In this document: positions 7,432 through 55,480 of the stretch, piece after piece | How the letters are laid out: each line of letters starts with the position of its first letter | Numbering within the stretch: position 1 is the stretch's first letter | Source: Chloranthus sessilifolius | Taxonomy: Eukaryota > Streptophyta > Magnoliopsida > Chloranthales > Chloranthaceae | Assembly (NCBI GenBank): GCA_021018995.1 | Contig: CM037585.1 | Span: forward strand, 129,018,791-129,082,790 | Length of the DNA: 64,000 nt | Reading direction: 5' to 3' | Notes under the pieces: model-generated | Databases searched by the model: none | The model's input: only the letters and a program-made list of their open reading frames with translations | What the model was told of the DNA's origin: nothing | Translations under genes and position numbers: made by a program

Positions 7432-9486
7432 CCGTTAATGGTGCCTTCTTCTTTGTTTGCTTTCTCTCTCCTTCAAACCATTCAATATTATAGTTCTAAC
7501 CATGGATCAAAATATCGTCCGATACCGATACGTATCGGTTTTGGACCTCACCGATACGATACAATGGGTTTTTATCATCAAAAAAAAAAATCAAATTATC
7601 GCTCAATGTATCATTCAGATTCGTCTCAGATTTCAATGTATCAGACGTGAATTATCGTCCGATAATTTCAAATTATCGGTTTTAATTTTTTTTTTTTTTT
7701 TGGGGAAAAAATCGGAGAGTATCGTTCGGAACCGATACGTATCGGTTTTGGGGCTGGACGATACGTATCAAAAAACGAGATTTTGATCCTTGGTTCTAAC
7801 AGCCTACCCATCTCTCCATCTCTGTCTATTAGATTCCTGTTTCCAAGCAAATCCAACAACGGCGAAGCTTGGAATTCGGTGTTGTGCCTAACAACGTATA
7901 CATCGATGGTGATGTGAAATGGAGGACTAGGGTTTCTTTCTTCCCCTCTTTTTTGAAGAAGAAAGGAAAAGACAATAGTACTCTCAAGGACGAGCTCCTG
8001 GAGGCGATCGCGCCATTCGATCGAGGTACCGAGGCAACGGACGAGGACCAAAAACAATTCGACCAGGTGAGTTTGATTTGAATTTGGATTGGGGTTTTTG
8101 GGTTCTGAAAAAACTACGCAAAGAGTCATCGTGCACGATGAACACTTACAATTGAGTTTTGATTAAGGGGGTGTTTTAATGGCCGTTGACCAAGTTGGTA
8201 GCTGCTATACTAGCTCTTATGTAAATGTATATTGGGATTAGGGTATCTATCGATTGAAACGAAAAGTTATGTTTGAGAAGATGAGTTTTCCGTACAAAAA
8301 ATATTTTCTTGTATTAGAATCTAATTAAAAATTAAATTGATAATAGAGCATTTCAAAGTTTGAGGCAAAGTAAGCTGGCTTCCTAAGGCAAATCTTCAAA
8401 TTAAGAAGGTTTATAGTATACTGAACAGGGTAAGGTCAATGCTGGTCAATGATTTCTAAGGAGGGCCTGATATGACATGGATGAGATCAATGCTGGAAGG
8501 TTTATATAGTATGCTAAACAGGGTAAGGTCAATGCTGGTCAATGGCCGATTTGGTTTGCTATCAAACAAGCATCTTACACGTTAACTCTCTAATACCATT
8601 ATAAATTTGCTCATTCAAACAACCTATTGAAAGTCAATAAAATGACCACATAGTGGTAATGCGGCTACAACACATAACGCGTTAGCACTCCTTAACACGT
8701 AGTTCGAATACAAACATTCAAACGTGCCCAATTATTCAACATAAGATTCCGTGAAAAGAAGACTTTTACAAACCTCAACACTGAACATTTATTACTTTGG
8801 CCCCGAACTTCACAAAAGTCTTAAATTCACATAATTCTGTGGAAAAAAGCATTTAGTACTTCATGAAAAGGGAGTAGGACTCCCAAATCCTATTAATCCG
8901 ATTGAATATTAAGTCACCAATTCACACTAGATCATTTATAATTTGTATTCAACAATAACAGCCTATCATAAACTGAGATAATCAATTAAAGAACAATCAG
9001 TTGCACTTAAATAACTAATGATGGGAGCTACATACACATCGGAGATCAAAACCAATAAATATTTTTTAAGAAAGAAATTCACCTCTCTCTGCAATCTCTC
9101 CTTCTCCAAGAACAGACAATGCTTTTAAAATCGATAATTTTTTAACCCCAACGGACTTTCCCGATCCAGTTTGGAACATCGGCCGGCTGTCACCACTAGC
9201 TTCTTCTATAAGCTTCAAAGATCCTGCAAAAAAGTAAAAAGAGCTTTAATAGATCAATTCATCGATCCATAGAGATGTAGATATAGAGAGAAAGAGAGAG
9301 ATTTCGATTAGGGTTACCTTGAAGCAATAAATCTCTTATCGAAGGGAGGCGAGTTTCAGGGGGAATTAGGGTTTCTTGATGTTGTTCTGATCTGCGGTCG
9401 AGATTTCCGCCGGAACTGCTCCACCGGAACTGTTTTCCGTCATCGGAAAAAATGTGCCACGTCGGTAATTCCGGCGTCGTCTGCAT
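3161..9486 (-). CDS. BRCA2: BRCA2 homologue, 5' part of gene (exons 1-3), runs off left edge
   Basis: Three minus-strand exons encode the N-terminus of a plant BRCA2, the mediator that loads RAD51 on single-stranded DNA in homologous recombination and meiosis. Exon 1 (9318-9486) has a start like that of Arabidopsis BRCA2: a TWHIFSDDGKQFRW motif, then LPSIRDLLLQG. Exons 2 (9083-9223) and 3 (3161-3301) each encode one BRC repeat, with cores MFQTGSGK and MFRTGLGK followed by SILKALSVLG and SIKKATSVLG. All junctions are phase 1 (CAA-G|GA) with GT donors and AG acceptors. Intron 1 is 94 bp and intron 2 is 5781 bp. About 150 residues are seen of a protein usually above 1100, so most of the gene lies outside the window. 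Seen: motifs, phases and splice sites. Known: BRC repeats bind RAD51. The FxxG core replaces the animal FxxA, as I recall for the first plant repeats. Confidence 0.88.
4738..5250 (+). pseudogene. RTE-type LINE reverse transcriptase fragment
   Basis: Conceptual translation on the plus strand, with frame changes, gives EILWRMLFADNIVLIS, then KISKTKTEYIECKFS, then WMKWRQASGVLCP, a KDIFI block, YKVWNFG and a KKQQEDR-like end. This order matches the palm-to-thumb and C-terminal part of plant RTE-clade LINE reverse transcriptases (usually MLFADDIVL). The catalytic second aspartate is an asparagine and several stops interrupt it, so it is dead. It lies in BRCA2 intron 2, antisense to the gene. Confidence 0.72.
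6276..7022. mobile_element. Mutator-type MITE with long TIRs and perfect 9-bp TSD
   Basis: The 747-bp element folds back over nearly its whole length. The left arm starts GGGTTTTTTGCAAAACCCCC and the right arm ends with its complement (tttgcaaaaaaccc), with arms of roughly 270 bp each. It is flanked by the identical 9-mer tcaaaataa at 6267-6275 and 7023-7031. Long TIRs with a 9-bp TSD point to the Mutator superfamily. It has no coding capacity and is therefore non-autonomous. It sits in BRCA2 intron 2. Confidence 0.85.
7375..7426 (+). repeat. (CT)n microsatellite
   Basis: About 26 uninterrupted CT dinucleotides lie just 5' of the fibrillin-like reading frame. Pyrimidine tracts like this are common in plant 5' leaders, so it may have come along with the captured gene piece. 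Confidence 0.9.
7438..8066 (+). pseudogene. Fibrillin-7-like (plastid lipid-associated protein) exon 1 fragment
   Basis: The 3' half (7890-8066) reads VKWRTRVSFFPSFLKKKGK, then LKDELLEAIAPFDRG, TEATDEDQKQFDQ and a GTGAG donor. This matches exon 1 of the plastid fibrillin FBN7/PAP family, plastoglobule-associated proteins. The 5' half, from an ATG at 7438 (MVPSSLFAFSLLQ), looks like a transit-peptide start. It is broken twice: a 300-bp MITE plus TSD inserts after 7500, and beyond it the ATG frame (SIRFLFPSKSNNGEAW) meets a stop and is out of register with the fibrillin frame. No exon 2 follows in the next kilobase. It lies antisense inside BRCA2 intron 2. It is an orphan exon, not a working gene. 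Confidence 0.72.
7501..7792. mobile_element. hAT-type MITE A (CAAGGATCAAAAT family), 8-bp TSD
   Basis: The termini are CATGGATCAAAATATCG at the left and ATTTTGATCCTTG at the right. The flanks are identical 8-mers, gttctaac, at 7493-7500 and 7793-7800, which is the hAT signature. The interior is built from short self-complementary words, including two perfect 14-bp palindromes CCGATACGTATCGG at 7525-7538 and 7732-7745, with A- and T-runs between. There is no coding capacity. It interrupts the fibrillin fragment. Confidence 0.85.
8730..9082. other. BRCA2 intron 2, 3' flank of TIR element
   Basis: AT-rich intronic sequence between the inverted-repeat element and BRCA2 exon 2 (in minus orientation, the donor-proximal part of intron 2). 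I see no coding or repeat signal. Confidence 0.5.
9083..9223 (-). CDS. BRCA2: BRCA2 exon 2, first BRC repeat
   Basis: The 141-nt exon has a ttgcag acceptor (9227-9224) and a GTGAAT donor at 9082. It encodes SLKLIEEASGDSRPMFQTG and continues GKSVGVKKLSILKALSVLGEGE. It is the same length and phase as exon 3. Confidence 0.88.
9318..9486 (-). CDS. BRCA2: BRCA2 exon 1 with start codon
   Basis: The ATG is at 9486 and the donor CAAG|GTAACC after 9318. It contributes 56 codons plus one base. The motifs TWHIFSDDGKQFRW and LPSIRDLLLQG align in order with the start of Arabidopsis BRCA2 (STWQLFPDS..FRW; PLPSMADLLLQG). The Arabidopsis protein starts a few residues before the TW motif, so this ATG gives a slightly longer N-terminus. 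Confidence 0.87.
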
Positions 9487-9630
9487 CTGAGCTAGGGTTT
9501 CAGTAAACGGAGTGGAGGAAAGCGGCGCAGAGTAGCAGAGTGAAGCGGAAGTTTCTTTCTAGTAGTTTATGAAGGCGGGAAAATTCGAATAAAAATGAAG
9601 CGACATCATGGGTCCGCTAAACAATAAAAG
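9487..9630 (-). promoter_or_regulatory. Presumed BRCA2 5' leader and proximal promoter
   Basis: The 144 bp between the BRCA2 ATG and the next fold-back element is the only unique sequence upstream of the gene. I see no clear TATA box. Two fold-back elements follow within 1.4 kb, so the upstream regulatory region is largely transposon-derived. Confidence 0.35.
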
Positions 9631-10084
9631 GCTATCTTGTACGCAGTGCGTAAGACGCACCGCTTTGGTTTCGTTGAAGCTTATGGTGACGCGGAGCACA
9701 AAAAGAGATTACCTACTTCCCGGACCCTGATAAAACGTTGATCGCTTCGGATCAGATGATGAAGATCTGTTTTCACATATTCCACAAAATAGATCTTGGG
9801 ATCATGGTTTATCTATCTGACGGTCAGTTTTTCATTCCCTATATCACAGATTCCCAAAAAATGAATCTTCAATCATATGACACACATCACACTCAAACGT
9901 TATTTTAAGGCCATCTTTGGGGGATTTTGAAGACATGGAATAAAAACGGACCATCTGATTGGTGCTAAATAATCTCAAGATCCATTTTGTTAAAGTCCGG
10001 GATGAAAATTGATCTACATCATCCGATACGAAGCACTCAAAAGTTTTCAAGGGGTTTGGGACGTGGGCACGAACAGAGGTACCC
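9631..10084. mobile_element. Fold-back MITE upstream of BRCA2
   Basis: Two arms are inverted copies. The left arm has gatcagatgatgaagatctg, then cacaaaatagatcttggg, then tctgacggtcagttttt. The right arm has the complement (ccgtttttattcc, atctcaagatccattttgt, gatctacatcatccgat). The right end, gaacagaggtaccc, is close to the GGGTACCTCT terminus of the element at 10601. No matching target-site duplication was found, so the ends are approximate. Confidence 0.6.
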
Positions 10085-10600
10085 TTTAATCGGTACCGAT
10101 GACATTGCTACATAGACCCACAATTTTACTTCCCTTGCACCCTTCTATCATATCCGATCAACCATCGCCCTAGGTGCCTCCTGTTGCAGGAAAATCGGCT
10201 CAAACTTTGTCAAAAATCATTTTTGGACAACCAATTGGACAATCAACCCATAGAGGTGGCATTTTCGTCCTTCAAATCAGTTGGGGGCAATGTAGCATCC
10301 ATCTAGAGGATTGGGTGTCACAGCAACCTGCCATGGTTGATCGAGCATCATCTAAAATGATGATTTTTAACTGTAGAAATTTGGGTCAAAGGTATAAAAT
10401 GTCAATGCAACATATTTCAGAGACAAGTCACAAACTTTGACCTCTGCAATCTGGATTGTATAGGGAAAAATAGTTTTCTTTTCCCTAAAAACCTAAGGCA
10501 CTAGTGGAACAATGTTGTGTAACTCTTCATCACGTGCCACATGACAAGTGATCTAGCACTCGAGGGCAACATGAAAAGGTAGAGTTCATGATTCTTTTTA
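10085..10600. other. Intergenic, no feature recognised
   Basis: This lies between two fold-back elements in the BRCA2-CLASSY interval. An 88-codon ORF at 10174 has no motif and I regard it as chance. Confidence 0.5.
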
Positions 10601-10882
10601 GGGTACCTCTATTCACACCTACAGAAATACTGAGGGCACCTACACTGAAAACCACTTCCTACTTTGAATCAAACGATGGAGATCATTTTTCATCCCCATC
10701 TTTCAGACAACGGATCTTGAGACCATGGGCGTACGATCAAACACTCACCTTTTGATTCAAGTGGTATACATTCCAAAAAGTGACCTGAAAATCACATGGC
10801 ATATATCACACCGAAACCTGGTTTTCAATGGTTTTCAGAATAGCTGCCCTCAGTAATTCGATAGGTGCGAATAGAGCTATCC
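10601..10882. mobile_element. 282-bp fold-back MITE with 9-bp TSD
   Basis: The left terminus GGGTACCTCTATTCACACC is inverted at the right end (ggtgcgaatagagctatcc). The flanks are identical 9-mers, ttcttttta, at 10592-10600 and 10883-10891. The 9-bp TSD suggests a Mutator-type element. It belongs to the same loose family as the fold-backs at 9631, 27339 and 59474, which share the phrases cacaaaatagatcttgagatcatg and aaaaaatgac. Confidence 0.72.
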
Positions 10883-10891
10883 TTCTTTTTA

Positions 10892-11147
10892 TTGATTGAA
10901 CATTTATATTATGTGGGTGTTCTTGTTCTAACTTTCATAATTCATTGTTGCAAGAAAGGTTTATCAACACCATAATTTTGGGTATCTGGCATAAAAACAC
11001 TTTTATACAGGATTATAAACTAGATGAGAACTTTTTTTTTGAACCAAAATGACTACAAAAAAAAAGGTTCCAGCCAAACAGGAGAGGCTCCATTAATTCT
11101 ATACATGCCAAGGAGCATGCATGTGTTATATACACTAAAAGCATAAG
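10892..11147 (-). promoter_or_regulatory. 3' flank of CLASSY gene
   Basis: This short AT-rich stretch downstream of the CLASSY stop codon at 11148 should contain the 3' UTR and poly(A) site. I cannot single out a convincing signal. Confidence 0.35.
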
Positions 11148-13100
11148 TCACTTGGGCAAAATGCAGCTCTTCTCAGAACCAATGGAAACCTCATTTTTCA
11201 TGATCTTATGAAATGCATTTGTTTGATCCTCTTTCACAATCTCCCTTAGGATGTCGTCATCGATGTCATCAACGTTCTTGTGAGCTGAACCCTCGATGCA
11301 CCCGTCGACAAATATCAAACTTGACATCCGCTCCTTCCACACCGACCTCCCATGCTTCTCCTCCTCGAAAGTCCCCTGCATCAACAGTTTGTACACATAA
11401 ACCACTCTCTTCTGACCAGGCCGGAACGCTCGAGCAATAGCTTGCTTTGTCCTTGACGGGTTCCACTCAGTATCCAATAGAACCACCCGCGAAGCTGCCG
11501 TCAAACTAATCCCTTCGGAACATGCCCTGATCGATGCTAGCAATACCCGAGAGTTCCCTCCATTTTCTTCAAACTTATCCATTACTCTTCCACGTTCAAA
11601 TAAGTCTTGCTCCCCGTGTAGCACCAATGTTTCTTCACCCCTCCGCCACCCGAAAACTATCTCAAATATTTTCACGAAGAGATCCATGGGGGGTATGTTA
11701 TGGAAGAAGACCAATACCTTCTCCCCTTCGGTGATGCATCGACTCACAAGGTCAACAACGAACTTCAACTTTGAACCCGTCTTCACATCAGATTCGTATT
11801 TATTGAGCTCCTTCAATTCATCTTCACTGAAGTATTTGCGTACGCAAGCAACCTTTGTTACCAACCAAGGATGTATCGATCCAACGGTGATCAGCAGCTC
11901 CAATTCAAGAGGGCAACTTTTCAGATTCATCGATCGGTGTAGCTTTGGGAGCACTTTTTGTTGAACATCAGTTGAGTTCATTAAGAGAGTATAGCTATGC
12001 AAACCAGGAAGTTTATCTGACTTTGGATCTTCGTGCACGTCTATAAACCCATTTGTAATCTTTCTTAGTACATCAAGTCCCCATTTCCTTTCCTCTTCTA
12101 TGCTAGAATTGATTTTTCTTCCTATTTTTTCAGTGAAAAGCTTTCTCGCAAAATTCTCTTGATTTCCCATGCTCATCCTTCTCCTTTGTTTTCCTTCGCC
12201 ACGGTAGGTGACTCTGGGGTCCAGTTCCCTCACCACCTCAGAAACAAATCTCGGTCGTGCCAAGCAAAGGGTGTTGAAGTATTCTCCGAGATTATTTTGG
12301 AATAGAGTACCAGAGAGCAAAATTCTCAATTCCGTTTTCACTTTCATCAATGCTGCCCTCGCTTTCGATATGGTGCTTCGGGGGTTGTGTCCTTCATCGA
12401 GGATTACAATTCCTGGGCTATTACGTAAGAGTCTTGCCATGTATCTCCTATATTTGCAGCTCAAATTTCCCCGTGTCATGTACCAAAATGATGTGTAACT
12501 CATAAGGAGGATACTAGGGCGTTTATGCCACTTGCAAAATTTCTCAAGGGAGTCCATGAGGTGCGTCACACTTTCATCTAGCCGGAGATTTACGGCAGAT
12601 TCATCACTCTTCTTACCAGCCTTTTCCTTCCTGTAGTCTCTACGAGAAAGGATCTGGTGAACCGGAACCGAGACCTCCCACTTTAAAATTTCCTTGCGCC
12701 AGGCATGGAGTGTGGTTGTTGGAGCCAGTATCAGTGGTCGTTGTCCCGGAAATAATCTCAAGTAGCTGACAAGAAACAAGATCACCGATAGAGTTTTTCC
12801 CGTTCCCGGAGAATGTGAGATTACGCAACCGCCCGTGTTCCCTGATACACTATCCATGTCTCTTGGGTTCAAAGACCCGGAAATGTTTCGCCAGAGAAAT
12901 TCGAAAGCTTTCTTTTGGTGGACATGTAGTTCCATTTTAAGTGGTGGTACTAGACTCCAAACGCTATCACACCCTCCCCATACGGAGCTGCACTTCGAAG
13001 AAATGGCATGGCTGAAAAGTTCGGAATCCAAATCACTATACTCCTTCAGTTCGTTTTTCTTACATTCCTCCTTGCTTCGGATCCAAACGGGGCTTTGAAC
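11148..13100 (-). CDS. CLASSY exon 5, SNF2 helicase core and stop
   Basis: The 1953-nt exon starts after an acceptor (tttatag) with VQSPVWIRSKEE and ends GSEKSCILPK plus TGA. It carries the entire ATPase: Walker A SPGTGKT, DEGHNPRS box, LSGT motif III, C-lobe LLASIRACSEGISLTAASRV and motif VI RAFRPGQKRVVYVYKL. The apparent start at 13031 is only a TTG inside the exon. The true reading frame is open to 13100. Confidence 0.93.
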   Translation of the reverse strand, partial: VQSPVWIRSKEECKKNELKEYSDLDSELFSHAISSKCSSVWGGCDSVWSLVPPLKMELHVHQKKAFEFLWRNISGSLNPRDMDSVSGNTGGCVISHSPGTGKTLSVILFLVSYLRLFPGQRPLILAPTTTLHAWRKEILKWEVSVPVHQILSRRDYRKEKAGKKSDESAVNLRLDESVTHLMDSLEKFCKWHKRPSILLMSYTSFWYMTRGNLSCKYRRYMARLLRNSPGIVILDEGHNPRSTISKARAALMKVKTELRILLSGTLFQNNLGEYFNTLCLARPRFVSEVVRELDPRVTYRGEGKQRRRMSMGNQENFARKLFTEKIGRKINSSIEEERKWGLDVLRKITNGFIDVHEDPKSDKLPGLHSYTLLMNSTDVQQKVLPKLHRSMNLKSCPLELELLITVGSIHPWLVTKVACVRKYFSEDELKELNKYESDVKTGSKLKFVVDLVSRCITEGEKVLVFFHNIPPMDLFVKIFEIVFGWRRGEETLVLHGEQDLFERGRVMDKFEENGGNSRVLLASIRACSEGISLTAASRVVLLDTEWNPSRTKQAIARAFRPGQKRVVYVYKLLMQGTFEEEKHGRSVWKERMSSLIFVDGCIEGSAHKNVDDIDDDILREIVKEDQTNAFHKIMKNEVSIGSEKSCILPK

Positions 13101-16100
13101 CTATAAAGTAAAATCATGCTAAAATTAGACAATGATCGAGCCATAGTAACGGATTTTGAATCAGAAAAAGTAGTTTCTTTTTTGGGTTGAAATCACTTAC
13201 AAAGGGTGGTGTCACGTATTTTATTTCGGTTCTCACGAAGTTGCATATTTGACATATAATCCCGATTTCTTCATCCAGTTTGTACTCATGTGGGCATGGT
13301 TCCCTTACACTGTCACTTGAACTATTTGCAGCCACATCGGAGAAATTTATGATTGATTCCTGAAAAAAATTTGATGTCACTGAAGCAGCAAACTGTACAT
13401 AATAGAAATAACCTCAAGCTCAATTGAAATGGAGTATCTGCCTTTCATGATATAAATGTTTAAATTGTTTTACTTTAAACTCTTTTTCACAAGGTCAGGC
13501 AGCAAGACCACTTCCATAATATAAGGTAATTTCAGTCCATCTTTGAAGATTAATTTCTTTATCATATTTAAAAGGATCCAACTCTCCTGACCATCATTTA
13601 AACAACGTACAACACGGTGTTTAAATGATCTTATACCATCAATGGTTTAAGATGTGGGTTATCCATACCGTCAAAGTCATAGATCCTAGTTGACGTGCAT
13701 CGGGCCCAAAAAAGTGTTTTAGGGAGATTTAAACCATCTGATTTGTGGACGATAATATCACCTGACATGTTTCTTTGGACTGAGACATGTTCCAATGATA
13801 AATTCCCGCTTGGACAATTTAGATTGATCACAATTGTGCACCCTATGGCACAATGATAAACCACACTTCAATGCTGTGAGATAAAAAGTCAAATTTAATG
13901 GTATAAGATCATTTAAACACCATTTTCGTGTTTAAATGTCAGTCAGGAGCCACTATCCCTATTTAAACGCTGCCACTATTGTTTTAGTGGGATTCAACAT
14001 GCCTAATTTTTTCATATATTTCTATTTACAGATTCACAAGCATACTCCCTTGTGACAAGAAGTGAGGAAACAATACACATGGCTAAGATGTGCAAGCTAA
14101 GTTGGATGTGTGACGTAACAAGAAAGTTACAATTAAGAATGAGTACATAAGTTGAGGGGTGACCATAGTAAAAATAAAAGAGAAAACTAAGAAGTGACGT
14201 TTGAATTGACACAAAGATTGGAGGTCGAACGAGTGGTGGCTGATCTAGAGGCAGAATTCTTTGGTGCTAGTGCTAAAGGTTTTGAAAAAGAACAAAATAG
14301 GGGGTCAAAGGTATGGAAAGAGATGCATACTCTGGCAGAGAGATTTCTTAAAGAAAGGAGAACGGGATAAATCACCTCCACAAGCAGATATCCGCAATGA
14401 AGACTTAAAGGACTACATTGTTCATATTAAGATATATTACAAGAGTGTAAGCCCCCTTTATATAGAAAATATAGGACAAAAGGTTACTCCTAAATGAGGT
14501 GATACTAAGCCCACTCCCTAACTAGACACATAGACAAACGACTTATATTATCTCCAACACTCCCCCTCAAGTTGGAGTATCCATAATATGGATGCCCAAC
14601 TTGCCAAAAAATACATAAAGGATACATGTTTATATCATTATCTCCTCCTAATTTGATAGGTTCACAACACAACAACATGATCCAACACCTTGCATCCAAG
14701 TGACAAAGAGCAATAGCAATGCTCTGCAAACACTTGCCCTCACTAACAACAATGATTTGGTGCAACACCTTGCACTAAAGTGGCCATGGAACCATCCCAT
14801 AGACCAAACAAATGACTAAACACTTGACCTATAACATGTTCTTGGCACAAGGACATAGGGAATTGAAGCAGTATAGTTTTATGGGTTTTCTCTCCACTAC
14901 TGATCTTACTCAAGCTGTCTCCGGCAATTACAGTAACTGAAGACAGGAAAAGGTCAAATCGTGGAAAAGATTAAGTGATTATGTCGGTCGGTCCTCTTCA
15001 CGTCGCAGTCTTCCATGAACCCCAGCCCCATACAACTCTAAAGGATAAATCACCTCCACAAGCATATATCCACAACCACAGGACTTACAAATCCATCAGC
15101 CACCATCCCTCCTCTTTTATTATTATTTTATTCTCTCTTTTTTTGTTTTTTTGAGTTACTACATGAGAACATGGCAGTATAGGACAGTAAAACAACACAA
15201 GATATGAGTACAACTCCTAGACATGAAATACAAGTCACTGTGACCCATAAAAATCAAGGTGCATCCCTGCATGTCAGTACACCAGCCATCACACTAACTA
15301 TATCCTTATACAATAAACTAAATCGACTTTCATGATATATCGTATCATACCATCCCAGCATCCACAGCTCGACCTCCATCATTCATCGTGTTCAACCATA
15401 AGATATCCCACGAGCAATAAGATGTAGTCTACTATTTTCGGCAGCAAAAAATCACAATAAGAGATCGGCAACACCCAAGGTTTCTGATATTTTACGGCAC
15501 AGATAAATGATTTCCAGATCTTCACACAAAAAACCTTCATGATTCCCTTTACAGAAATTCAAATCACATAAAACTTGGGTTTAGTAGAAATGAGAAAACC
15601 GATCAACCCTTTGTCGATCTCGCAGGTACTCTAACTTCACAAACATCAGTGTCACGGAATACTGATATTTGACGAAATCTATATGCATCATGAAAAACAT
15701 TTCAGACTCTATGATAGAGAATAAAAAATCAAAGGTGAAAAAATAAAAGTGCTCCTCAGAGGATTATGATCCAAATCTGATCCTTTTTGTTACCATCCAA
15801 GCTCAACCTTTGACTTGGGGCTGGCGTCAGCAACTTCCCTTTTTTTTCCTTTCTTTGTTTTTTATTTTTTTGATAGGTCCTTTCTTTGTTCTTCTTTTCT
15901 TCCATAGCTTACATGCAATAGCAGTCCACGGAAGCCAGTAACAACTCACAACTGTCGCCCTCTTCTCTCTTTTTCATATGTTTTTTTTCATGGCTGCCTA
16001 CAACATCAACCTCTTCTCTCTTCTTGTCTTCCTTCTTCATTACTGCTACAGCACATCATCTCCTATTTTTCTCCGTTCACATCTTCTTAGCATCTCCTCC

Positions 16101-22068: not shown

Positions 22069-22076
22069 TTACTACT

Positions 22077-22323
22077 AATGGATCAAAATCTCGGATTTTC
22101 GACACATATCGTCCAGCCTCAAAACCGATACGTATCCGTATCGATTCTGGACGATACATTCCGGTATTTTTCCAAAAAAAAAATTAAAAAAATGATCATT
22201 TGAATGATAATTTGATTGTTTTTTAAGGGGGGCGATAAAAACCCAATTTATCGTATCGTCCAAGTCCAAAACCGATACGTATCGGACGATACGTATCGGT
22301 ATCGGACGATATTTTGATCCATG
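22077..22323. mobile_element. hAT-type MITE B (CAAGGATCAAAAT family)
   Basis: The ends AATGGATCAAAATCTCG and CGATATTTTGATCCATG are inverted. The flanks ttactact (22069-22076) and ttactatt (22324-22331) are an 8-bp TSD with one transition. The interior repeats the CCGATACGTATCGG type of palindrome several times, as in copy A, so A and B form one subfamily. Confidence 0.82.
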
Positions 22324-22334
22324 TTACTATTACA

Positions 22335-28480: not shown

Positions 28481-28483
28481 ATA

Positions 28484-30487: not shown

Positions 30488-30491
<4 letters not shown>

Positions 30492-30536: not shown

Positions 30537-30537
<1 letters not shown>

Positions 30538-36691: not shown

Positions 36692-36696
36692 TAAAC

Positions 36697-38764: not shown

Positions 38765-39450
38765 AGAAACTGTTAAAATCGATTAATCAATTTTGAAAAT
38801 TGATTAATCGATTTTTGACAGAAAAGAAATTCAAGAGGAACTTCACGAAATCGATTAATCGAAAAAAAATTGATCGATTTTGACTAGGCTTACTGACATT
38901 ATTATAGTATTTCGGCCATAACTTTTTTTTTCCAAACTCCGATTGATATAATTCTTATTGCGTTGGAAAGAGGACAGCAAGCCCTACAACTTTTATGAAT
39001 TGACAAACTTGTAAATCAACCGTTTTAAAAGTCAAAATTTAGTGATAAGTTTGGTCAAATTCTGATTTTTATCGAGAAACAAAACCGATTAATTTAGTAA
39101 AATCGATTAATCGATTTTTGAATTTCGATTAATCGAAATTGGGTCGATTAATCGACTGGACACAATCAGTGAGAAAAAATTTTGGCTGTTTAAAAATCGA
39201 TCAAATGATTTTGGAAAATTGATTAATCTATTTTGAAAATCGATTAGTCAATTTTGTCTGAGTTTGCCAGTACTGCTTTGGTATTTTGACTATAACATTT
39301 TGTTCCGAACTCCGATTGATGCAATTATTGAGGCATTAGAAAGATGACAAAAAGATCTACAACTTTTGTGATTTAATAATTTAGTAAATTTAAGTTTTTG
39401 AAGGTAAAAAATTTAGGAGAAAGTTATATCAAATTCTAAGTTGGCACGAA
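38765..39450 (+). repeat. Tandem duplication with CGATTAATCG palindrome clusters
   Basis: Two units of about 300-380 bp share the order: cluster of ATCGATTAATCGAT-type palindromes, then a block with agtatttcggccataac / ggtattttgactataac, then cgattgatataattcttattg / cgattgatgcaattattgagg, then ctacaacttttatgaattg / ctacaacttttgtgattta. At least eight CGATTAATC words occur. Confidence 0.7.
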
Positions 39451-39777: not shown

Positions 39778-39866
39778 GTTTCTTTGAGGTATTTATATAA
39801 AAAAATGATAAGTTTCTTTGATGTGTTTAGATAAAAAATGATAAGTTTTCATGATGTATTTTGATG
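39778..39866 (+). repeat. Short 33-bp-period array
   Basis: tttctttgaggtatttatat and tttctttgatgtgtttagat, each followed by aaaaaatgataag, form two and a half copies with a period of 33-34 bp. Confidence 0.6.
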
Positions 39867-40107
39867 TAAGTTTGATAGTAATTTGAACTATAACTTAAAC
39901 TCTTTGCAAAATAGAAATTTGAAATTCTTGAGTCGAAAATGGTGAATTTTGAACTGTAAACTTAACCTATAATTTCTATTATGGTATTCGATTTTAAACT
40001 TGATTTTTAAAACCTTTGAACCAAGAATGTGAGCTTTGGACCGTGATTTAGAAAATGAACTAGAATGTGAACTCGGAATCGTTGTGTCTTGTAGATTTGT
40101 GAGAAGG

Positions 40108-40650
40108 TACACCCTTGGACCGCTGTGGTGGGATGTATGTACACCCTTGGACCGCTGTGGCGGGATTTATGTATGCCTTTAGACCGCTTTTATGGGATTT
40201 TACGTACTCTTTTGGACACTGTTGTGAGCCATGTACGCCTTTTGACCGCTTTTGCGGGATTTTACGTACTCCTCTGGATAATGTTGGGATTCATGTACGC
40301 CTTTGGACCGTTTTTACGGGATTTACGTACACCCTTAAACTTCGATGTAACCATGTATGGCTTTAGACCGCTTTTGCGAGATTTTACGTACTCCTTTGAA
40401 CCTTGTTGTGACTCGGTACACCCTTGGACTGCTGTGGCTGGATTCATGTGCACCTTTAGACCGCTTTTGCGGGATTTTACGTACTCTTCGGATGTTACTT
40501 CGTAAATCAAATGAGAAGTCATGAGATTAAGGTGGACTGCTATGGGCGGATTTGTGTATGTGAACCGCTATGGGCTGATTTTGTGTATGTGGACAGCTGT
40601 AGGCGGATTATGCTTGTCGTGGACCGCTATGGGCGGAGTATAAATACCAT
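40108..40650 (+). repeat. Minisatellite, 32-33 bp unit (accgct-tgcgggatt)
   Basis: About 14-16 units built on ctttggaccgcttttgcggg plus attttacgtac. Unit starts at 40108, 40140 and 40172 show a 32-bp period; later units are 33 bp or degenerate, and the last ones are shortened. Each unit carries an inverted pair ccgc...gcgg that could form a small hairpin. Two frames remain open through it only because the unit is repeated. Confidence 0.82.
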
Positions 40651-40668
40651 GTGGGCTGCTGGGGCCAA

Positions 40669-40935: not shown

Positions 40936-41495
40936 ATATGAAAATATTTGATTTTGACATTGAATCTATGCTTCATTTGATAAGATGTAGATTTGTATTG
41001 AGTTTCCTCTACTAAGCTAGGATGTAGCTCACCCCCCGACTATACGTCACAGGTATAACGTTATTAGGATACCAGACTTGTAAATTGAGGACTTGAGGAG
41101 TGCTGAGATTTTCAGGATCGTAGATCGAGTGCCTTGTGGAGTTTGGTGAGTGTGGCTTGGTACAATGTGTTATTATATACTAGTTGTACACCACTGTTTG
41201 GTGATGTTGGTACATCATCGGTGGTCATTGTTAGTTATTTTAATATTTAATATTAGAATTAAAAATTTTATTTATGTTATGTTTTATACCAAGTATTCTG
41301 TATCAAGTTACGATCTACGATCTGATGGTCCGATTTTTCTGTTGGATTTACTTTTTTTAAATATATATATTGTTGGTTTTTGTGGAAACCGGAAAATCGG
41401 GCTGTGACACAGCATGTTCAAGTCCGATAGGGCATCAAACAAGGCCAGGGCCCAACTAAGCCTGCTTCAAGCCCAATGCTGACGGTCCTAGGTAG

Positions 41496-41711
41496 CAAGG
41501 ATCAAAATATCGGATAAAATTTCAATTTCAGGCATGACCGAAACCGAAAATTTGAACCAAAATTTCAGCTGAAAACTGATAATTTAGCCGAAATTTTGAT
41601 TCCCATACAAATTATGACTGAATTTTCGATCCAAATTGTCGTTTCGATGAGGACCGAAACTGATAATTTGGACCGAAATTTTAGTCATTTCGGCCGAAAT
41701 TTTAATCTTTG
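41496..41711. mobile_element. hAT-type MITE C (CAAGGATCAAAAT family), perfect 8-bp TSD
   Basis: Termini CAAGGATCAAAATATCGG and CCGAAATTTTAATCTTTG. Flanks ctaggtag identical at 41488-41495 and 41712-41719. The core is built from gaccgaaaccgaaaatttg-type words rather than CGATACGTATCG, so C and D form a second subfamily. Confidence 0.85.
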
Positions 41712-41719
41712 CTAGGTAG

Positions 41720-43604
41720 TATAATTTTTTGTACTAATTAACTGATAAAATATGATTATCTAGCTTATAAAACATTTGGTGTAGCAATCAAATTTGGTCA
41801 TAAGTTCAGCCTAGAACTTTAAGGGCTTCCGAAGTTTTTTCCACGGTCTTTATAATTTCGTAGGCAAGAGGCCATTTTTGTAGGAATTAGTGCCAAGTGA
41901 CTTAATACTCACGTCACTTTTTGGATGTGTGCTATTAGGATCATCATAGGTGCTGTCTCATAGGTGTATCATGTTCTAAATATCATTAGTAAAAAAAATT
42001 AGAACAAAAAAGATCTCCCTCATCTAAATGAAGGAAGCCAGATGTCATCTAAACTAATGGCTATCGTGTAAATCCATTGTATTTTTAATTTTAGATGGTC
42101 TTTGATCACTTTAAATAAGGCGATGGAAATCATCTTTTGATCCAATCTTTTGCAAAAACAAATCTTCAAATCATGGTCATCAAATCACACAGAACACATC
42201 GCCTAGATCTAGAATTATCCTCAATGGCTTGTGTAACCATAGATCGTTGATTTTGTATATCATTCCGTTAAAATAAATGATCTTGTTACACTTTCATTGT
42301 GGTTTTATCTAATGGTGGAAAACAACCCTAATCACTATCTCCATATCTGGTTCACTTATATGAGTTATATGCTACTTTTGGGCAAATCCTTTCAACAACT
42401 ACGAGATCCATTCGAGAAACACCAGTACTAGTTGAACGAATGAGACTCTCATATCTCATATTAGGAGGCTCATTACTTCAAATGAAATAAGAATAAAATA
42501 TTTAATTTTTTTTAGTAGGAATCTTGGGCGGTTCTCAAAAAAAAAAATTTTTTAAAAAAAGTGAAAAAAATTATCCCTAAAGTCAAGACTACCGGGAATT
42601 TATAAACCAATGCTTCTGTCATTGGATCATAGTTTACACTATAGCTTCCACGCCTCATAATTTCAACTGAAAAAAGGGCAACTCAAAGAAAAAGCAGTGA
42701 TTCAAATCAAGAATTCTCTGAAATCTTACATCAAAATAAAATTAAAAATTAAAAAAAGGTTAAAGATATCAAAGCAATAGTGATCAAATGACTTGTGCAA
42801 CGGTTCGTTTGATTGTTTGCAACCTCAATACACACGTTCTTTCCAATATATAACAGTTTGTAACAAAACAACACTACAATGTATTGGCAAATACAAAGAG
42901 GGAATGCGAAGAGAGCTTCATTGCTTTTAAATCATTTGAGATTGCTCTTAAGAAGAGAGAGGGCTGGACTTAATACATCGATGACGATTGTAAACAAATT
43001 TCTTAATAGCCGTGGAAGGACTTTTGGGGGAAAATTGTTTATCAGAAATTAATTTTTTTTACTTTTCTAAGAGTTTTATGATTTTTTAAATTTTATTTTA
43101 TTTTAATTAAAGGAGAAAAAATTATTAGCATATATAATTACTTGTAACCTAAAAAATGACCCAAGTACCAACAGCATCGGTGCTCAGGTTGAGACCTAAT
43201 ACCAACTCCTTTCTATGGCATTAGCACTGTACGATCGATGCGGTCATGGGCGAACAACATGCACATGGATCTTCATGCTCTTATGCCCCGTTCGAATAGC
43301 CAGAATGACAGGATTTTGAATTTTTTTACTTTTTCTAAGATTTTCTTGGGTTTGAGGAAATCTACTTTTTTACCTTTTGATGGGTGAAAGGGATTTTATT
43401 TTTCGTGCAAATTAATCAGAAAGACTAAGATCTTGTGTCTTTAGCTGTATACTCGTCTCTTAGAAGTACATAGGATATCGCCCTCTTGTTTCATTATTTA
43501 TTGAATTGCCATTATACACAAAATATTTATCGTGCCCCCTATTTTTTTTAATTAATAATTAATAATTTTCATATAATTAAGGGGCAAAAAAATGCGAAAA
43601 CTCA
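41720..43604. other. No gene recognised
   Basis: About 1.9 kb of AT-rich DNA with A-runs (42538, 42740) and no supportable ORF, RNA gene or repeat structure. Confidence 0.5.
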
Positions 43605-43818
43605 ACATTTCTGAACCGAAAAATAAAGACCGGAAATCAAACCGAAATAGATCCAAAACTAAAAAATAAAAACCGATTTTGGATCGGTTCGATTTCGGTT
43701 TTGAGTGCCGCAAACCGAAAACCGATTGGATAGGGGGAGTAAAACGAAACTAATCATAATATGGTGTTTTATCATACCGAAACTAATAACAATATAGGTT
43801 CCGAAAACCGAACTAAAA
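43605..43818. repeat. AACCGAAA-rich dispersed repeat
   Basis: Dense aaccgaaa/ttcggtt words on both strands, including ttggatcggttcgatttcgg, like the segment at 55545-55830. It is probably a decayed MITE of the aaccga type. Ends were not defined. Confidence 0.5.
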
Positions 43819-44218
43819 GTGAGAAAACCCAAAAAATCGAAAATCTTATTTTATAATGTACTCAAATTCCTGAAATCGGAAATTGTGGCCCTTCAAGAGA
43901 CAAAATCGACTAAGTGTGAGTCATCTAAGGTGTCCTCGGTCCTTTGGGGTAGTGATTGGGGTTGGGTTGCGAAGGATGTGATAGGTTCTAGAGGAGGTAT
44001 CTTAGTGGGATGGATAGAAAATGTTTGGCGTTGTATTCGTGGGTCGGAGAGCAAGTATGCGACCGCTATCATCCTATGCGATATTAGAGATAATAAGGAG
44101 TGGCTTTTGACAGCGGTATATGGTCCTACGGATCGAGATTTGGCAGACGAGTTCTAGGAAGATTTGGACTGGAATAGAAATAAGTGGAAAGGACTTTGGT
44201 GCCTGATGGGGACTTCAA

Positions 44219-44688: not shown

Positions 44689-45257
44689 ATCTCCCACTTG
44701 GCCATACTATGTCAATAAACTCCGATTATCAAATGTTAGCTAACTTTCTTTGAATAACAAATCCAAATCAATCTCAATCAAAGTCTTTATAATCAGTCTG
44801 GTTCAGTGAGAATACTAACACAGAATCAATATAGTTCATGCATCATGTCATCGATAAAGGACTGTTCATTAATTACCGTATTAGAATTTATCACCGACAT
44901 AAATTCCAACTAGTATGATTTCGCATAAATTACAAGTTTACAAGCTGAATGGTGATTACATATAAACTCAATCTATTATTGGTCCTACTTTATTATCATA
45001 TATTGGCAACATATGTTCCAAAATTTTATTTGCATAAAAATAGAAAAATAAATAAATAATTTTTATTTTTGAATCAATTAAATAAATATATTCACTCTTA
45101 TACATGTACTCTCAATGACTATCAAAACTATCATTTAATCTCATGCGCGCAACGTGCTCCGAAAAGAGCTTGGGAGGTAAGCCTTTAGTGAGGGGGTCAA
45201 CCAGCATGAGTGTCGTACTAATCTTTTCAACATATACAATTTGATTCTGAACTTTCT

Positions 45258-49160: not shown

Positions 49161-51066
49161 AAGACGGATTCAATACTGTACAATAATTAAGGGTTTTATT
49201 ATGGCCACATACAATTATAGTAACTATTAATTTCACAAGGTTATATTTATAGTATTTGACACAAGTGTTAAATTATGTCAGAATATAATAAAGATTAAAA
49301 CCAATGTGGTTTTATTGAGAAATAATTTATATCATTATGATCTTCCGTTGGGTCGAGTAATAACACACGAGCCGCTTCCTCAATCTACATGAATGATTAT
49401 GGTACTAATTGTATCGTTATGGCCCTCTGTTGGGCCGATTCACAATATGTTAGCAGTACCGATACACAAAATAATTAATAGTAAAATACAACCATCACAC
49501 AACATTAAGTAATTCATCACTGTTGGGCAGAAGTAATCCCTTAAGTTGTAATGCCAACATTTACTACACAGTTTCACTAAATTTGTAATACGGTCTTTGA
49601 CAAAAATAAATCTCACTATGAAAACCACGGCACTTAGAAAGATCATCTGCGTTGGGCAGAAGAATCCTTCCAAGCCATGTCTTCTATTTGGGTTTATAAT
49701 ATTTTAGATGGTCACAAAAGTGGTTAAACAACAAAATAAATAAGTCACTCAAGATATGCAAGTGACCAAATCTAACTCGTATTGTGGGTAAGTGCCAAAA
49801 ATTAACAATAATCATGAGTAACATTATGTCGGTAATAGCCTTGGTACTAGAGCACAACCTCCAATAACCCTAATTAAAGGCACTCAAATTTATAATAATG
49901 ATCCAATTAAAATTTGTCAAAAGGACATCAAGTCATGAAAACATCACAACAAAGAGCTCCTTGTAAAAAATAGATCTAAAATATAGATCCGAAATATCCG
50001 AGAAAGTCAAAATTCATATATAATGTCCGAAAATCGGACCTATAAATAACCTAGAAATGACCCGAAAAGAATAATGAATAATATGAGTCACAATTGGGCC
50101 TTAAGGGCAAACGGATCGTGTCTAACGGGCCGAATTGGGTCATGAATCATGGGTCGGGAATGGACTGGACCGGCCCATGGGCTGGATCGGGTCATGACCC
50201 GAGTCCGATTATCGATCGGGCCAGGTCACAGACCGAGTTGGGTCTAGTGTTTATACGGATCCATAGGCCGGGTTGGGCATGTGGACTATACGAAAAATCG
50301 GGTCACGGGGCCCAATAGACCCATCGTGTAAGAAAAGGGAGACACAACAGAATGGTGTTTTAAAATTGTGATGCTTCAGAAGTCCTCTTCTTCTTCAATA
50401 AAAAAGAAAGAGACCTTAGACCTCTTTTATTTGTAGCTGCCATTAAATGAAGGCCATAAATATCACTTCACGTTTACGCTCAACTAGCCATGATTGATTT
50501 AACCCAATTTTGCTTGCTAAAGGCGTTGATATCTATAATGGTGTGCTTAGGGTAACGGAGTTATGAAGGCAAGCCATGCATGATAAACGACCATTACTAA
50601 AAGACCCAAAGGAACCAACACTACATCTAAGTATTTCTCCTCAATCAACGCACGTTAGCAGCTGATCCCTTTTGCTCTAGTTCTCCAACTTGAATTCTTA
50701 TATATATACATAATCAAGTTCAAAGATACAGTTCAACTAATCATGGCTAAAAAAAACTGAATCAACCAACCCTTGCATATTATTTTCAAATTATAACATT
50801 GATAATAGAAAACGAACATCAATCCATTGATTGTGGATAAAAAAAATAATTATAAGAAGAAGATACCAACTACGGCAAACGTAACCATAGATTCTTCTTC
50901 GCATGCCCACATTACGTTTCAATTCATATTTTCGAAAAAAAAATTGTACGTTTCATCAATAATACAGAGAACTATATTCTCTCTCTAGGTTTCAATATCA
51001 CACAAGATAAAACTCATGTATTAATGCTTTGACCGATCAAACATCAGTCATGGCTATGATACCAAT
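49161..51066 (-). other. 5' leader of copia element, with GGGTC-rich insert
   Basis: Non-coding stretch between the primer site and gag, unusually long at about 1.9 kb. From 50090 to 50330 base composition changes to GGGTC/GGCCC-rich words (gggtcatgacccgagtccg), like the repeats at 56860 and 58310, so a small element probably inserted here. Confidence 0.5.
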
Positions 51067-51538
51067 TGATGGATCTATCGATCCAGCCATCCAAATATTT
51101 GCCCTTGGGTCTAGGCGCATGATCAATCAAAACAACAAATAAACAACCCATAAATTAAAATATATGTGCACACTTTGAGTGTGAGCAATGAAAGATGAGT
51201 TTCCGCTTCGATCTTCAATGATCTCCTCGCTCTCAATACCTCCTAACACAATGAGGATGCTTTTACTAATAAGGAGGGTTGAAGTGTGTCGAGCAATCGT
51301 TGGGACCAAGAATCCCTTATATTTATAGCTAATGAGTCCTTTCCCATTAAGGACTTAAAATTAATTATATTGTGATTGAAATCACAATCATACCCTAACT
51401 AAAAGACTAAATTATTAGTTGCTTATCCTCTTCAAATTCACCGATTTAGCAACTATTATATCACAAGATTGATCATATGTCATTCACCGGTCAACGAATT
51501 CACCATAGTGGCTGCCACCAAAATAAAAACTTCTAACA
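51067..51538 (-). repeat. 5' LTR of nested copia element
   Basis: 472 bp; its right flank continues directly with LINE endonuclease sequence. Confidence 0.88.
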
Positions 51539-54500
51539 CTCAATGCTCTCCTTTCCCTGACGGAGAAGTCTAAAGTGGGGAGGTATTTGAGTTCCATGAG
51601 AAAGTCTAATGCGAGCTATTGGTTGTTCTAATAACAGGTGCCCTATTCACTTGGTCGAATAATTAGTAGTCGCCTTCTCTATGCAGAATCGATAGGTTCT
51701 TGTGTAATTATGAGTTTGATCGATTATATCCGAATTTAGCTTGCTCGGGTCATCTTCGATTGGCATCTAATCACATTCCTATCTCTCTGACGCTTGATGA
51801 CGATGACTGGGGCCCGCCTCCTTTTCGGTTCAAGAATACATAATTGAAGGTTCCTTTTTTTAATGATTTGGTTCTTGCTACTTGGCCGGATCTCCAAGTT
51901 CAGGGTACTGCTCAATTTAAGCTGGATTCTAAACTGCGGCTTCTTAAAAAGAAAATTCTCGTTTGGTGCAGAGAGATTTATGAGGATTTGGAGTCTACTT
52001 TGGGGATGTTGCGGGAGGAAATTAACACTCTAGACAGGGAGGAGGAAACTTGACCATTGTCAGTGGCTGAAGATTACAAAAGAAAAGAATTACAACAACT
52101 TCTCTCAGCTAAATTGGTCGAGGAAGAAATAAAATGGAAGCAACGGTCCAAGGAGAAATGGATCAGGGAGGGTGATTGAAATACTAAATATTTTCACCTC
52201 ATTGCTAATGCTAGAAGATGGGTGCATTCTATCAGAAATGTGGTGGTTAGTGGAGTTAGAGTGGATCAGAAGGAGGACATTGCTATGGCGATTACTAATT
52301 ATTATCGAGATTTGTATAAGGATGAAAGAATCTGCAAGCCTGCGCTTGATGGTTTGGACTTCTTGGGTATTTCTGCGAGTGATAGAGAGGAGGTTGAGAA
52401 GCCTTTCGTAGAAAATGAGGTCTTTTGTGTAGTCTCTAAAGCCAAAGGTGACAAGGCACCAGACCTCGATGGCTTCACCTTTGCTTTTTTTTTTTTGAAA
52501 AAATTATGGGAATCTCTGAGGTCTGAGGTGATGGAGGTGTTTCTGGAATTTTATAGTGATGTTATCAACAAAGGTGTAAACCCCACTTTCCTTACGTTAA
52601 TTCTGAAGATTCAAGGGGCTTCGGACATCAAAGATTTTCGTCTGATTAGTCTGATTGGAAGCGTTTATAAGATAGTAGCTAAGGTGCTAGCCAACAGGCT
52701 TAGGCATGTTTTAGGGAAGATCATCTCTCCAAATCAGGGTGCATTCATAAAAGCAAGAATGCCCACGATATGGCGGTTATCGCCCATGATGTGTGCACTC
52801 ACGCCATGTGATGAATTTACCCGATGTGGCTTGCAAAATGGACCTGGAGAAGGCTTATGACAGAGTAAATTGGTTCTTCCTCGATTACATGTTGGGTCGT
52901 ATGGGTTTTGGTGATCTTTGGAGGCATTGGATGTACTCCTACTACTCGTCCCCGACTTGTTCGGTGATGATAAATGGCAAACCTAACGGTTATTTCCGGA
53001 ATAGCAGGGGTCTAAGGAAAGGATACCCATTGTCCCCCTTCTTATTTAACATTGTTAGTGAAGGGCTATGCGGTATGTTGTGTAATGGGGCAAAGGAAGG
53101 TTAGTTCAAAGGATTCTAATTGGTGAAAAATGGTGAGAGGGTGACCCACCTGCAATTCGTAGATGACACCCTAATTTTCTGCGGGTGTAATGTCACACAG
53201 AGCTCACAAGTATATATAAAAAATATTCTGGTATGTTATGAGGAGGTTTTTGGGATGCGGGTAAATTTTCATAAATCTACCATCCACGAAATCAGGTGAC
53301 CCAAAATGAGCTAAAACTGTTGGTCGAGGGAACTGGCTTCAGGTGTGAGATGTTTCCTTCTCGCTACTTAGGTTTGCCGATGTGCTCAGGTATGCCTCGG
53401 AGACACCTTTGGGACTCTATTATTGATAGATCTAGTCGAAGACTCGCGTCTTGGAAGAGTAGGCTTCTATCCAAAGGGGGTAGATTGACCCTCATTAAAG
53501 CTTTTCTCTCAAACCAGGCGGTATTCAGTTTATCGATGTTTCGGTGTCCGAAAAGTGTGGTGGGTGCTTTGGAGAGGATCCAATGAGATTTCCTATGGTG
53601 TGGTGGTGCGGGCAGTCATAAAAACCACTTGATTAACTGGGAAACAACTTGTTTACCTCTGAAGGGGGAGCCTCAATATTAAACGAATTGCGGATATGAA
53701 TGATGCACTCCTAGCTAAATGGTGGTGGAAGCTGGGGGAGGCCAAGGAAGACTGGTGGGTTAAGTTGGTTGCCTCTAAGTACCGTATCACCTTTCAAGAT
53801 AATATGGTGCAGAGGACGAATGGTGGTAGTGGGTCGGGTTGGTGGTCTAGTATTTGTAAAGTGAAACCCAAATTCGATAGGCTCATCATTTGGAAGGTGG
53901 GCAACGGGGAGATGATCATTTTTTGGTTGGATAAGTGGGTAGATGTGAGGCCTCTTCATACTTTGTTTCCTCAACTTTTTTAGTTGACTAGAGGGAAAGA
54001 TTGTTGCATTAGTGAATTCTGGAATGGAAGTGGTGAAGGTAGAGCAAGTTTTTGGCAAATCCCATTTAGGCGGCGTTTGAAAGGTCCTGAGGAGCTCCTC
54101 CTCTCCGATCTGCTGAACTTGCTACCCGACAAGCCTCTAACTCCCGCTAAAAAAGTTGAAGTGGTCTGTCTTGGCGCAAGAAATGAGAGATTTTCAGTGG
54201 CTCACTGTTATAAGTTCTTCAATAGGACTCTTGTGTGTCAACAATAGATTGTTATGTGGAAATCTCCGATTCCGCCCAATGTGAAATTCTTCATATGATG
54301 TGCAGTATGAGAGAAAATTATCACCGTTGATAATCTTAGATCTAGGGGCATAATCATGGTGAGCTATTGTCCTTTCTGTAAAAGCGGTGAATTTGCCTTT
54401 CACCTCCTCATGTCTTGTAAGATAGCTTTCTATATTTGGACGGCGGTCATCAAGTGTTTTGGGGTTAGTTGGTGTCTTCTTGGTTTTATCAAGGAGGCTA

Positions 54501-54980
54501 TTGTGGGCTGGGGCTGTGGTTGCTTTTCCGACATTGGGAACTTTCTTTGGCAGGTAGCCCCCTAGTCACGTGGGAGCTCTGGAACGAGAGAAACCGGCGT
54601 ACCTTTACAAGAAAGGTCATGGGCTTCCATGCAATTGCAAAATCTATTTTACTTCTCAGAAGTAAATGGACTATTGCTGCCAACCTTTTAGAGGTGGAGA
54701 TGAGGCAGTTGTGGGGGTTGGGTCTCAAGAACTTGCTCGTTGAATTGTCAAAAATCATCAACTCGTAGGCTTGCGTCAGGCTTTGGCGTGTTTGTGCCTC
54801 TCTTTCTTTGCTCTGTTGTGTTGCAGGTCCGGTCGGCCATTTGGGTTCCCCTTGGTTGGGTCGGTAGTGATGACATTGCCGAAGCTCCCTCCTGTTGGCC
54901 AGCCGCGGCCCTTTGGGCTCCTTTTTGTCGTATTGTAGTTTGTTTTTTATTTTATTTTATTTACCTCTTCAAAAAAAAAA

Positions 54981-55405
54981 GTGTACATAAAATTTAATCA
55001 TTTTTTTTTAGTTACATAAAACTTAATGATAAGATAGTGTTTTATAATTTGCTTGCTAAAATCATATTTTAATAAGCAGGCCACCCAATGTCTCCATTTC
55101 CCTATGGATCTTTAATGTACAAAAAATCAGGTATTAATATGTACGACACGCTATCCGATGCACTACAGTCATTCAAACGATCATATTCCTTCCACTTAAC
55201 TAATCTTGTGAGAATGACTTAAAAACATAGGAAAACAATATTTATGAGAAAAGTTAGGAATATGAGTTGGCCAAAAATCTGCAGGATTCTAACTTATCAG
55301 GAAGTTGAGCTTTTTTTTATTGAAAATCTCATAATCACCCAAAGGAGGCCTTAAAGTCAATTCAAGATCGGCTCCTATATTGTCTGGTGCATGACTGGGT
55401 CAGAC
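54981..55405. other. No feature recognised
   Basis: AT-rich DNA between the LINE poly(A) and MITE D. Confidence 0.45.
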
Positions 55406-55480
55406 CAAGGATCAAAATTTCGGCCGAAATGACCGAAATTTCGGTTTCCGTCCCCTCCGAAACCGAAATTTTGATCCTTG
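55406..55480. mobile_element. hAT-type MITE D, 75 bp, perfect 8-bp TSD
   Basis: CAAGGATCAAAATTTCGG at the left and its inverted copy CCGAAATTTTGATCCTTG at the right; flanks ggtcagac identical at 55398-55405 and 55481-55488. The centre is only three short ccgaaatttcgg-type words. It is the smallest family member and may define the minimum that can be mobilised. Confidence 0.88.

Follow-up and report, generated by a model that had tools for sequence, protein, structure and literature searches.

Plant miniature inverted-repeat transposable elements (MITEs) derived from hAT transposons are non-coding, carry terminal inverted repeats (TIRs), are flanked by an 8-bp target site duplication (TSD), occur in thousands of copies and share their ends with a coding element. 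Here we describe a family from Chloranthus sessilifolius that is represented by four copies in a stretch of 64,000 nucleotides (assembly GCA_021018995.1, contig CM037585.1, positions 129,018,791 to 129,082,790), hereafter called the window. These four palindrome-filled repeats belong to an hAT MITE family whose ends are rich in words, and as such they are an ordinary kind of thing. The copies fall into two classes according to their short self-complementary words, which are built on CGATA (class A) or CGAAA (class B). The family has the same traits as the plant hAT MITEs, and in the CGATA class it also shares its ends with coding elements. It differs from them in that the words fill nearly the whole body, in that two word sets lie under one nearly identical TIR, and in a possible ladder of lengths with steps the size of a helix turn.

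The VANDAL elements of Arabidopsis, which are Mutator-like, offer one parallel. The VANC targets in these elements are repeats of a short motif in non-coding sequence, and the motif versions of related elements have changed together (PMC5735166). The present family likewise has a repeated short motif and class-specific versions of its words. However, the VANDAL motifs are tandem and not self-complementary, and they serve an anti-silencing protein, of which none was sought here.

A second parallel comes from the hAT elements themselves. The BED domains of the Hermes transposase bind short subterminal repeats, the first two of which form a cooperatively bound quasi-palindrome (PMC10368747), and Herves, another hAT, has a subterminal binding motif (PMC3143072). 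The ends required are long, ~220 bp on each side for Hermes, 200/150 for Tol2, ~100 for Tag1 and at least 200 for Ac (PMC10368747). The family is like Hermes, and in this sense Ac/Hermes-like, in its 17-bp TIRs, its 8-bp TSD of the form nTnnnnAn, the DUF659 and hAT dimerisation domains of its CGATA class, and the short repeats near its ends that form quasi-palindromic pairs. It is unlike Hermes, Tol2, Tag1 and Ac, with the end requirements just given, in having TSD-flanked units down to 36 bp in total, which may have been mobile at that size.

The family is very probably a high-copy swarm of hAT MITEs, as its TIRs and TSDs, its largely collinear CGAAA bodies, its CGATA coding elements and its internal deletions all argue. 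By analogy with Hermes and other hATs, we predict that the self-complementary words are paired subterminal sites for the N-terminal BED-like domain of the transposase. As putative transposase sites they would stay near the ends in inverted pairs, and the sequence between them would be free to be lost.

Ends, copy number and target site duplications

The genome searched comprises 2.17 Gb in 32 contigs. The exact 17-bp end, CAAGGATCAAAATWTCG, is present 8,826 times (4,430 forward and 4,396 reverse), and the reversed control is absent. Pairing of the first 100 listed end places gave 82 elements, 18 of them with both ends exact, and a two-end estimate of ~12,000 elements, with those that have diverged ends under-counted. 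A sample of 40 regions holds 43 of the 82 elements. Of these 43, 36 could be matched with a second end and carry an 8-bp TSD that has no more than two mismatches (23 perfect, nine with one mismatch and four with two); random nearby pairs of 8-mers reach this limit in 122 of 15,120 trials, the real chance rate being somewhat higher since the pairing script preferred partners with matching TSDs. The 36 paired copies are 84-494 bp long. Among the 23 perfect TSDs, 14 have T as their second base and 14 have A as their seventh. Given the base composition, the binomial probabilities are 0.003 and 0.004, and nTnnnnAn is the target pattern of Hermes (PMC10368747). The family is thus short, bears TIRs and has a high copy number, as expected of MITEs, the short copies being taken as non-coding.

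The remaining seven sampled elements are unpaired. One is the end of a 7,037-bp coding element (L021), which is described below. By eye, L044 has a perfect 8-bp duplication with the left terminal repeat absent, and L037 has a duplication offset by two bases from a truncated end; L019, L030, L045 and L047 look truncated or have no resolved partner. The copy in L044 (~2860-3017) begins at the internal core GGGATTGAAA, which is TIR-like and is perhaps a cryptic end.

An earlier, sequence-only reading of the window had placed four elements with 8-bp TSDs exactly where we find them and with the same lengths (Table 1); three of the TSDs are perfect and that of copy 2 matches at 7/8. It also had the copies share their ends, which stands insofar as all eight lie within three mismatches of CAAGGATCAAAATWTCG; window shuffles hold a mean of 0.78 such matches and a maximum of five. 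However, only three of the eight ends are exact, and in copies 1 and 2 all but one of the four ends open with CATGG or AATGG. Similarly, CCGAAATTTCGG, which that reading gave to a pair of copies, is exact in copy 4 only, and copy 3 has TTTCGGCCGAAA and TTTCAGCTGAAA instead. The statement that the interiors differ is mistaken for copies 1 and 2, which are collinear once they are turned to one orientation. Their end-to-end alignment has 197 of 221 ungapped columns identical and 97 gap columns, and their local score is 113, compared with a maximum of 37 in 200 shuffles. What that reading said of the type of family, of the very small copies and of interiors rich in self-complementary words agrees with our results. 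Single-strand folding, which covered copies 1, 3 and 4 and not copy 2, is stronger than in dinucleotide shuffles (z -8.9, -6.0 and -6.9, respectively).

Table 1. Members of the hAT MITE family and other repeats in the window (TSD, target site duplication)
Feature	Coordinates	Strand	Description
Copy 1	7501..7792	+	292 bp, class A (CGATA words); perfect TSD GTTCTAAC
Copy 1, left TSD	7493..7500		GTTCTAAC, again at 7793-7800
Copy 2	22077..22323	-	247 bp, class A (CGATA words), in the opposite orientation to copy 1
Copy 2, left TSD	22069..22076		TTACTACT; right partner TTACTATT at 22324-22331, 7/8 match
Copy 3	41496..41711	-	216 bp, class B (CGAAA words); perfect TSD CTAGGTAG
Copy 3, left TSD	41488..41495		CTAGGTAG, again at 41712-41719
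Copy 4	55406..55480	+	75 bp, CGAAA-word class; TSD GGTCAGAC on both sides
Copy 4, left TSD	55398..55405		GGTCAGAC, again at 55481-55488
Inverted-repeat element	6276-7021		229-bp arms, 89% complementary
Word array	38775-39256		third kind of self-complementary words (AAAATCGATTAATCGATTTT)
Tandem arrays	40107-40637		units of 29-122 bp around GTACGCCTTTAGACCGC
Mutator-like MITE candidate	57019-58138		325-bp arms at 90%

Rfam gave no match at the gathering threshold, and the best hit among solved structures (E 0.032) is irrelevant. Two matches in a viral collection, each to a single end within what by eye resembles phage coding sequence, were taken as chance. By eye, a cluster of CGAAA words at 43595-43838 of the window has no ends of the hAT MITE family.

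Word classes, coding elements and body plan

The CGATA words are the subterminal repeats of an hAT coding element. The unpaired end in L021 is part of this element, which spans 7,037 bp (C1:1274938-1281974), has ATCCTATT on both flanks, a TSD matching at 8/8, and encodes a protein piece with DUF659 (E 1.9e-55). Its left 330 bp contain 19 CGATA half-words and its right 330 bp contain eight, with no CGAAA half-words; per 100 bp, the CGATA density is 5.8 in the left end, 2.4 in the right end and 0.2 in the inner 6,377 bp. L053, another coding copy, combines a 94% identical DUF659 piece with Dimer_Tnp_hAT (E 1.4e-12). Every end found in the three coding elements read is CGATA-rich; the right end of one of them (L052) was not found. 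In a protein search with 7,468 first-look candidates, 150 were scored and gave 151 matches, with identities of 84-100% among the matches listed, and PF05699 is present at at least 150 scored places.

The CGATA MITEs align with these ends. The left end of copy 1 aligns with the left ends of the coding elements. L042, which is 494 bp long, resembles the parent at both ends, the left one over ~186 bp (score 189, shuffle maximum 30) and the right one over ~140 bp (score 151 for the outer part, shuffle maximum 29).

The coding elements display some rearrangements. L021 contains, at 1393-2263, an inverted duplication of part of the 3' region of the coding element, 95-99% identical in three pieces and with a 58-bp centre. 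In L053 the left end is present in two opposite orientations (540-1440 and from 2456 on), as if it had been inverted, and nested inside is a CGATA-word MITE with the TSD TGTGTCGC on both sides.

The body plan was studied in an alignment of 36 sampled copies and the four window copies, where copy 3 is among the longer CGAAA members. From end to end, a CGAAA copy consists of the TIR, GACCGAAATTTCGGTC (in some copies), a hairpin around TATCGGTTTCGGTCCCCACCGAAACGATA, then GGGACCGAAATTTCGGTC, the TTTGTATGGGATTGAAA core, a second hairpin GGTTTCGGTCATGCCCGAAACC and the other TIR. Collinearity was assessed by two-fold cross-validation on bodies trimmed of their outermost 18 bp, with 20 shuffles of 12-bp blocks for each body. 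The bodies score above all 20 of their own block shuffles in 33 of 37 cases and above all 20 dinucleotide shuffles in 36 of 37, and the forward direction is better than the reversed one in 34 of 37. Scrambled or template-switched bodies would fail such a test, and so the CGAAA bodies are largely collinear.

The two word sets, CCGATAcgTATCGG for CGATA and CCGAAATTTCGG for CGAAA, lie under nearly the same TIR. The half-words are nearly exclusive. The share of CGATA among the CGATA and CGAAA half-words is at least 93% in three of the 40 copies (copies 1 and 2 and L042), 50% in two and no more than 33% in the other 35. Against the CGAAA profile, copies 1 and 2 score 25.7 and 12.8 bits, which none of 200 shuffles reaches. 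This weak homology of the bodies, together with the nearly exclusive words, would suggest that the two classes may be anciently related, with words that have altered in concert. Probably the two word sets mark two lineages served by different transposases, of which the CGATA one is the one found.

Several observations weigh against the overall reading of the family as one hAT swarm with word-based transposase sites. No CGAAA-class coding parent is present among the three coding elements read, and copies 3 and 4 score only 19-37 against the ends of the CGATA elements, roughly what shuffled sequence gives (mean scores 17-22, maxima 26-39). Homology between the A and B bodies is weak, and L042 scores an insignificant 4.0 bits against the CGAAA profile. 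Four of the 37 CGAAA bodies do not exceed all of their block shuffles, and three are no better forward than reversed. The middle of L042 contains ~167 bp that are absent from the parent and mostly match L030, a CGATA copy for which no far end was located; therefore, L042 is not merely the two ends of the parent joined. The BED domain (PF02892) in L053 has an E of 0.011 and 16.2 bits, under the Pfam cut-off of 20.6, and the step from word to binding site is an analogy.

As to the missing CGAAA parent, L048 has distant fragments of an hAT transposase at 2348-2973 (minus strand), 43-51% identical to that of the CGATA class, beside a CGAAA-class MITE. These fragments are a possible lead to it.

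Shortening and length steps of the smallest copies

The short copies are internal deletions of longer ones. For example, 28 of 48 copies of 60-93 bp are derived by one deletion from one of 36 longer copies with at most 20% interior mismatch, a limit reached by 0.2% of interiors shuffled in 6-bp blocks and exceeded by the other 20 copies. Among the 52 listed copies of less than 95 bp, 34 consist of the head and the tail of one of the 36 longer copies with at most 15% mismatch, and their junction microhomology averages 3.1, compared with 1.5 expected. A separate microhomology estimate from 37 CGAAA copies was discarded, as its consensus contained a 21-bp artefact of the alignment. The 75-bp copy 4 is best fitted as a single deletion of the longer copy L015, with seven mismatches and a junction at positions 32-39.

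The sequence-only reading had explained the family differently, by growth or shrinkage through inverted duplication of the terminal TCGG word, perhaps by template switching. The strong folding of the interiors, a 14-bp tandem word duplication within copy 2 (22273-22299) and the inverted duplication in the 3' region of the coding element, which is of another kind, would agree with such a process. However, scrambling of this sort does not fit the collinearity of the CGAAA bodies and of copies 1 and 2, nor the single deletions that explain so many of the small copies. In the CGATA class, moreover, a coding parent has the core words in place as subterminal repeats, the very finding that the sequence-only reading had named as contrary to its proposal. 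We have therefore rejected template-switch growth as highly improbable.

There are 164 exact-ended copies of less than 125 bp (five, 54 and 105 in the ranges 34-64, 65-94 and 95-124 bp). The smallest five are 36, 45, 47, 47 and 60 bp long, and all are flanked by 8-bp TSDs, two perfect and three with one mismatch; the 36-bp element is simply two 18-bp ends back to back. Because the hATs treated in PMC10368747 need ~100-220 bp per end, these units either moved regardless or shrank in place. Of the 54 copies of 65-94 bp, 50 are listed, and 47 remained after three of four identical local duplicates were dropped; nine are 65-67 bp and 19 are 77-80 bp long. The best period tried for this range alone is 12.0 bp (R 0.459), and 10.5 bp gives 0.422. 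For 36-93 bp pooled (n=52), the strongest period is 10.5-10.75 bp (R 0.44). From this, peaks at 99, 109 and 120 bp were fixed ahead of the data for 95-124 bp, a 12-bp word step predicting 90, 102 and 114. In that range 50 of the 105 elements are listed, 47 after three of four same-length neighbours on C4 were dropped. Thirty-six of the 47 lie within 2 bp of the preset peaks, compared with 40% expected under a rising ramp; this fit comes from lengths alone, with shared ancestry still in it. At the preset period and phase, the mean cosine is 0.55 and u is 5.3, and none of 20,000 ramp samples is as high.

Similar steps are known from the internal eliminated sequences (IESs) of Paramecium, whose lengths have a ~10-bp periodicity with peaks at 45-46 and 65-66, interpreted as looping of the DNA when it is excised in its complex (PMC3464196); a ciliate paper on MITEs and IESs (PMC9942856) may be a further precedent. 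Both cases concern short transposon-derived units with length steps of about a helix turn. However, the IESs depend on a domesticated PiggyBac-type transposase and are selected for excision, whereas the elements here are hATs without a known need for excision, and the period here is nearer 10.5, based on ~100 lengths.

One explanation, tenable but held at rather less than an even chance, is that the ~10.5-bp steps arise because short transposition substrates need ends that face alike on the helix. In addition to the preset fit, pooled R is 0.495 at 10.5 bp and falls to 0.10 at 12, 0.04 at 12.4 and 0.21 at 6.2, and nine lump centres, picked post hoc, give 0.76 at 10.5. The phase weakens to 0.29 at 125-154 bp (n=11) and is gone at 155-184 bp (-0.03, n=15) and 185-260 bp (-0.25, n=13), as would be expected if longer DNA is flexible enough, although these numbers are small. 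The TSDs read, those of the five units of 36-60 bp, also agree with mobility, but the 60-bp copy is off phase. The 12.0-bp optimum of the 65-94 bp range is equally awkward, and when each interior cluster below 95 bp contributes one length (20 clusters), the best period is ~11 with p 0.079. It is conceivable, if somewhat doubtful, that units from 36 to ~124 bp transpose only with their ends in helical register, at lengths of ~36 + 10.5n, and that the self-complementary words pack or bend the DNA and so enable synapsis.

Deletion from word to word, combined with shared ancestry, is a serious rival to helical phasing, and we consider its chances about even. Here the tiny copies would have been cut in place after insertion, between repeated words, one of which is possibly in the TIR, and the steps would reflect the spacing of the words and a few successful lineages. 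The one-deletion derivatives and the excess microhomology at the junctions of the 34 usable copies fit this account, as do interiors that recur among the copies of 66 bp and of 77-79 bp. The correlation of a word-to-word deletion model with the detrended length histogram is 0.39-0.40, although a 10.5-bp cosine reaches 0.53, and deletions between 8-10 bp repeats produce phase in the 95-124 bp range (mean cosine 0.41-0.49) and in the 36-64 bp range (0.63-0.86). At 65-94 bp, however, hardly any phase comes out of the model (mean cosines from -0.14 to 0.07, and from -0.14 to -0.04 for the 8-10 bp repeats) compared with 0.42 observed, in a band that helped to set the phase. Likewise, half-word spacings peak at 5-7, 12-13, 18-19, 24-25, 31 and 37 bp, a step of ~6.2 at which the lengths have a power of only 0.21.

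Two local groups were noted among the short copies, four identical 78-bp copies 1.05-2.15 kb apart (C3:22817094-22821448) and four 120-bp copies within 100 kb (C4:25946052-26042747), the latter known by length alone. Probably both are local segmental duplications that carry a MITE.

Other repeats and the meaning of the family

Self-complementary words are also present in other repeats of the window (Table 1). The Mutator-like MITE candidate has, by eye, a possible 9-bp duplication (TTGGCATTT/TTGGGATTT) and an interior of self-complementary words (AGTCGATGTCGACT). Words resembling ACAATCGATGGCGA can be seen by eye within the hAT copies L042 and L030, and the middle of L042 aligns weakly with this element (45, compared with a shuffle maximum of 36).

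Among the papers listed, the literature search returned no report of tiny or phased hAT MITEs. Five of the exact family words had no match in it, and another exact-word search listed one paper, on enset diversity.

The length ladder of the smallest members is the part most worth pursuing, and it may be new. If the steps reflect helical phasing, the family would be a natural series of substrates that shows the minimum size of an hAT and how its ends synapse, and the published minimal ends of 100-220 bp would not be a general limit. Even if phasing fails, word-rich ends and internal deletion have together produced a swarm that is scrambled in look but largely collinear.

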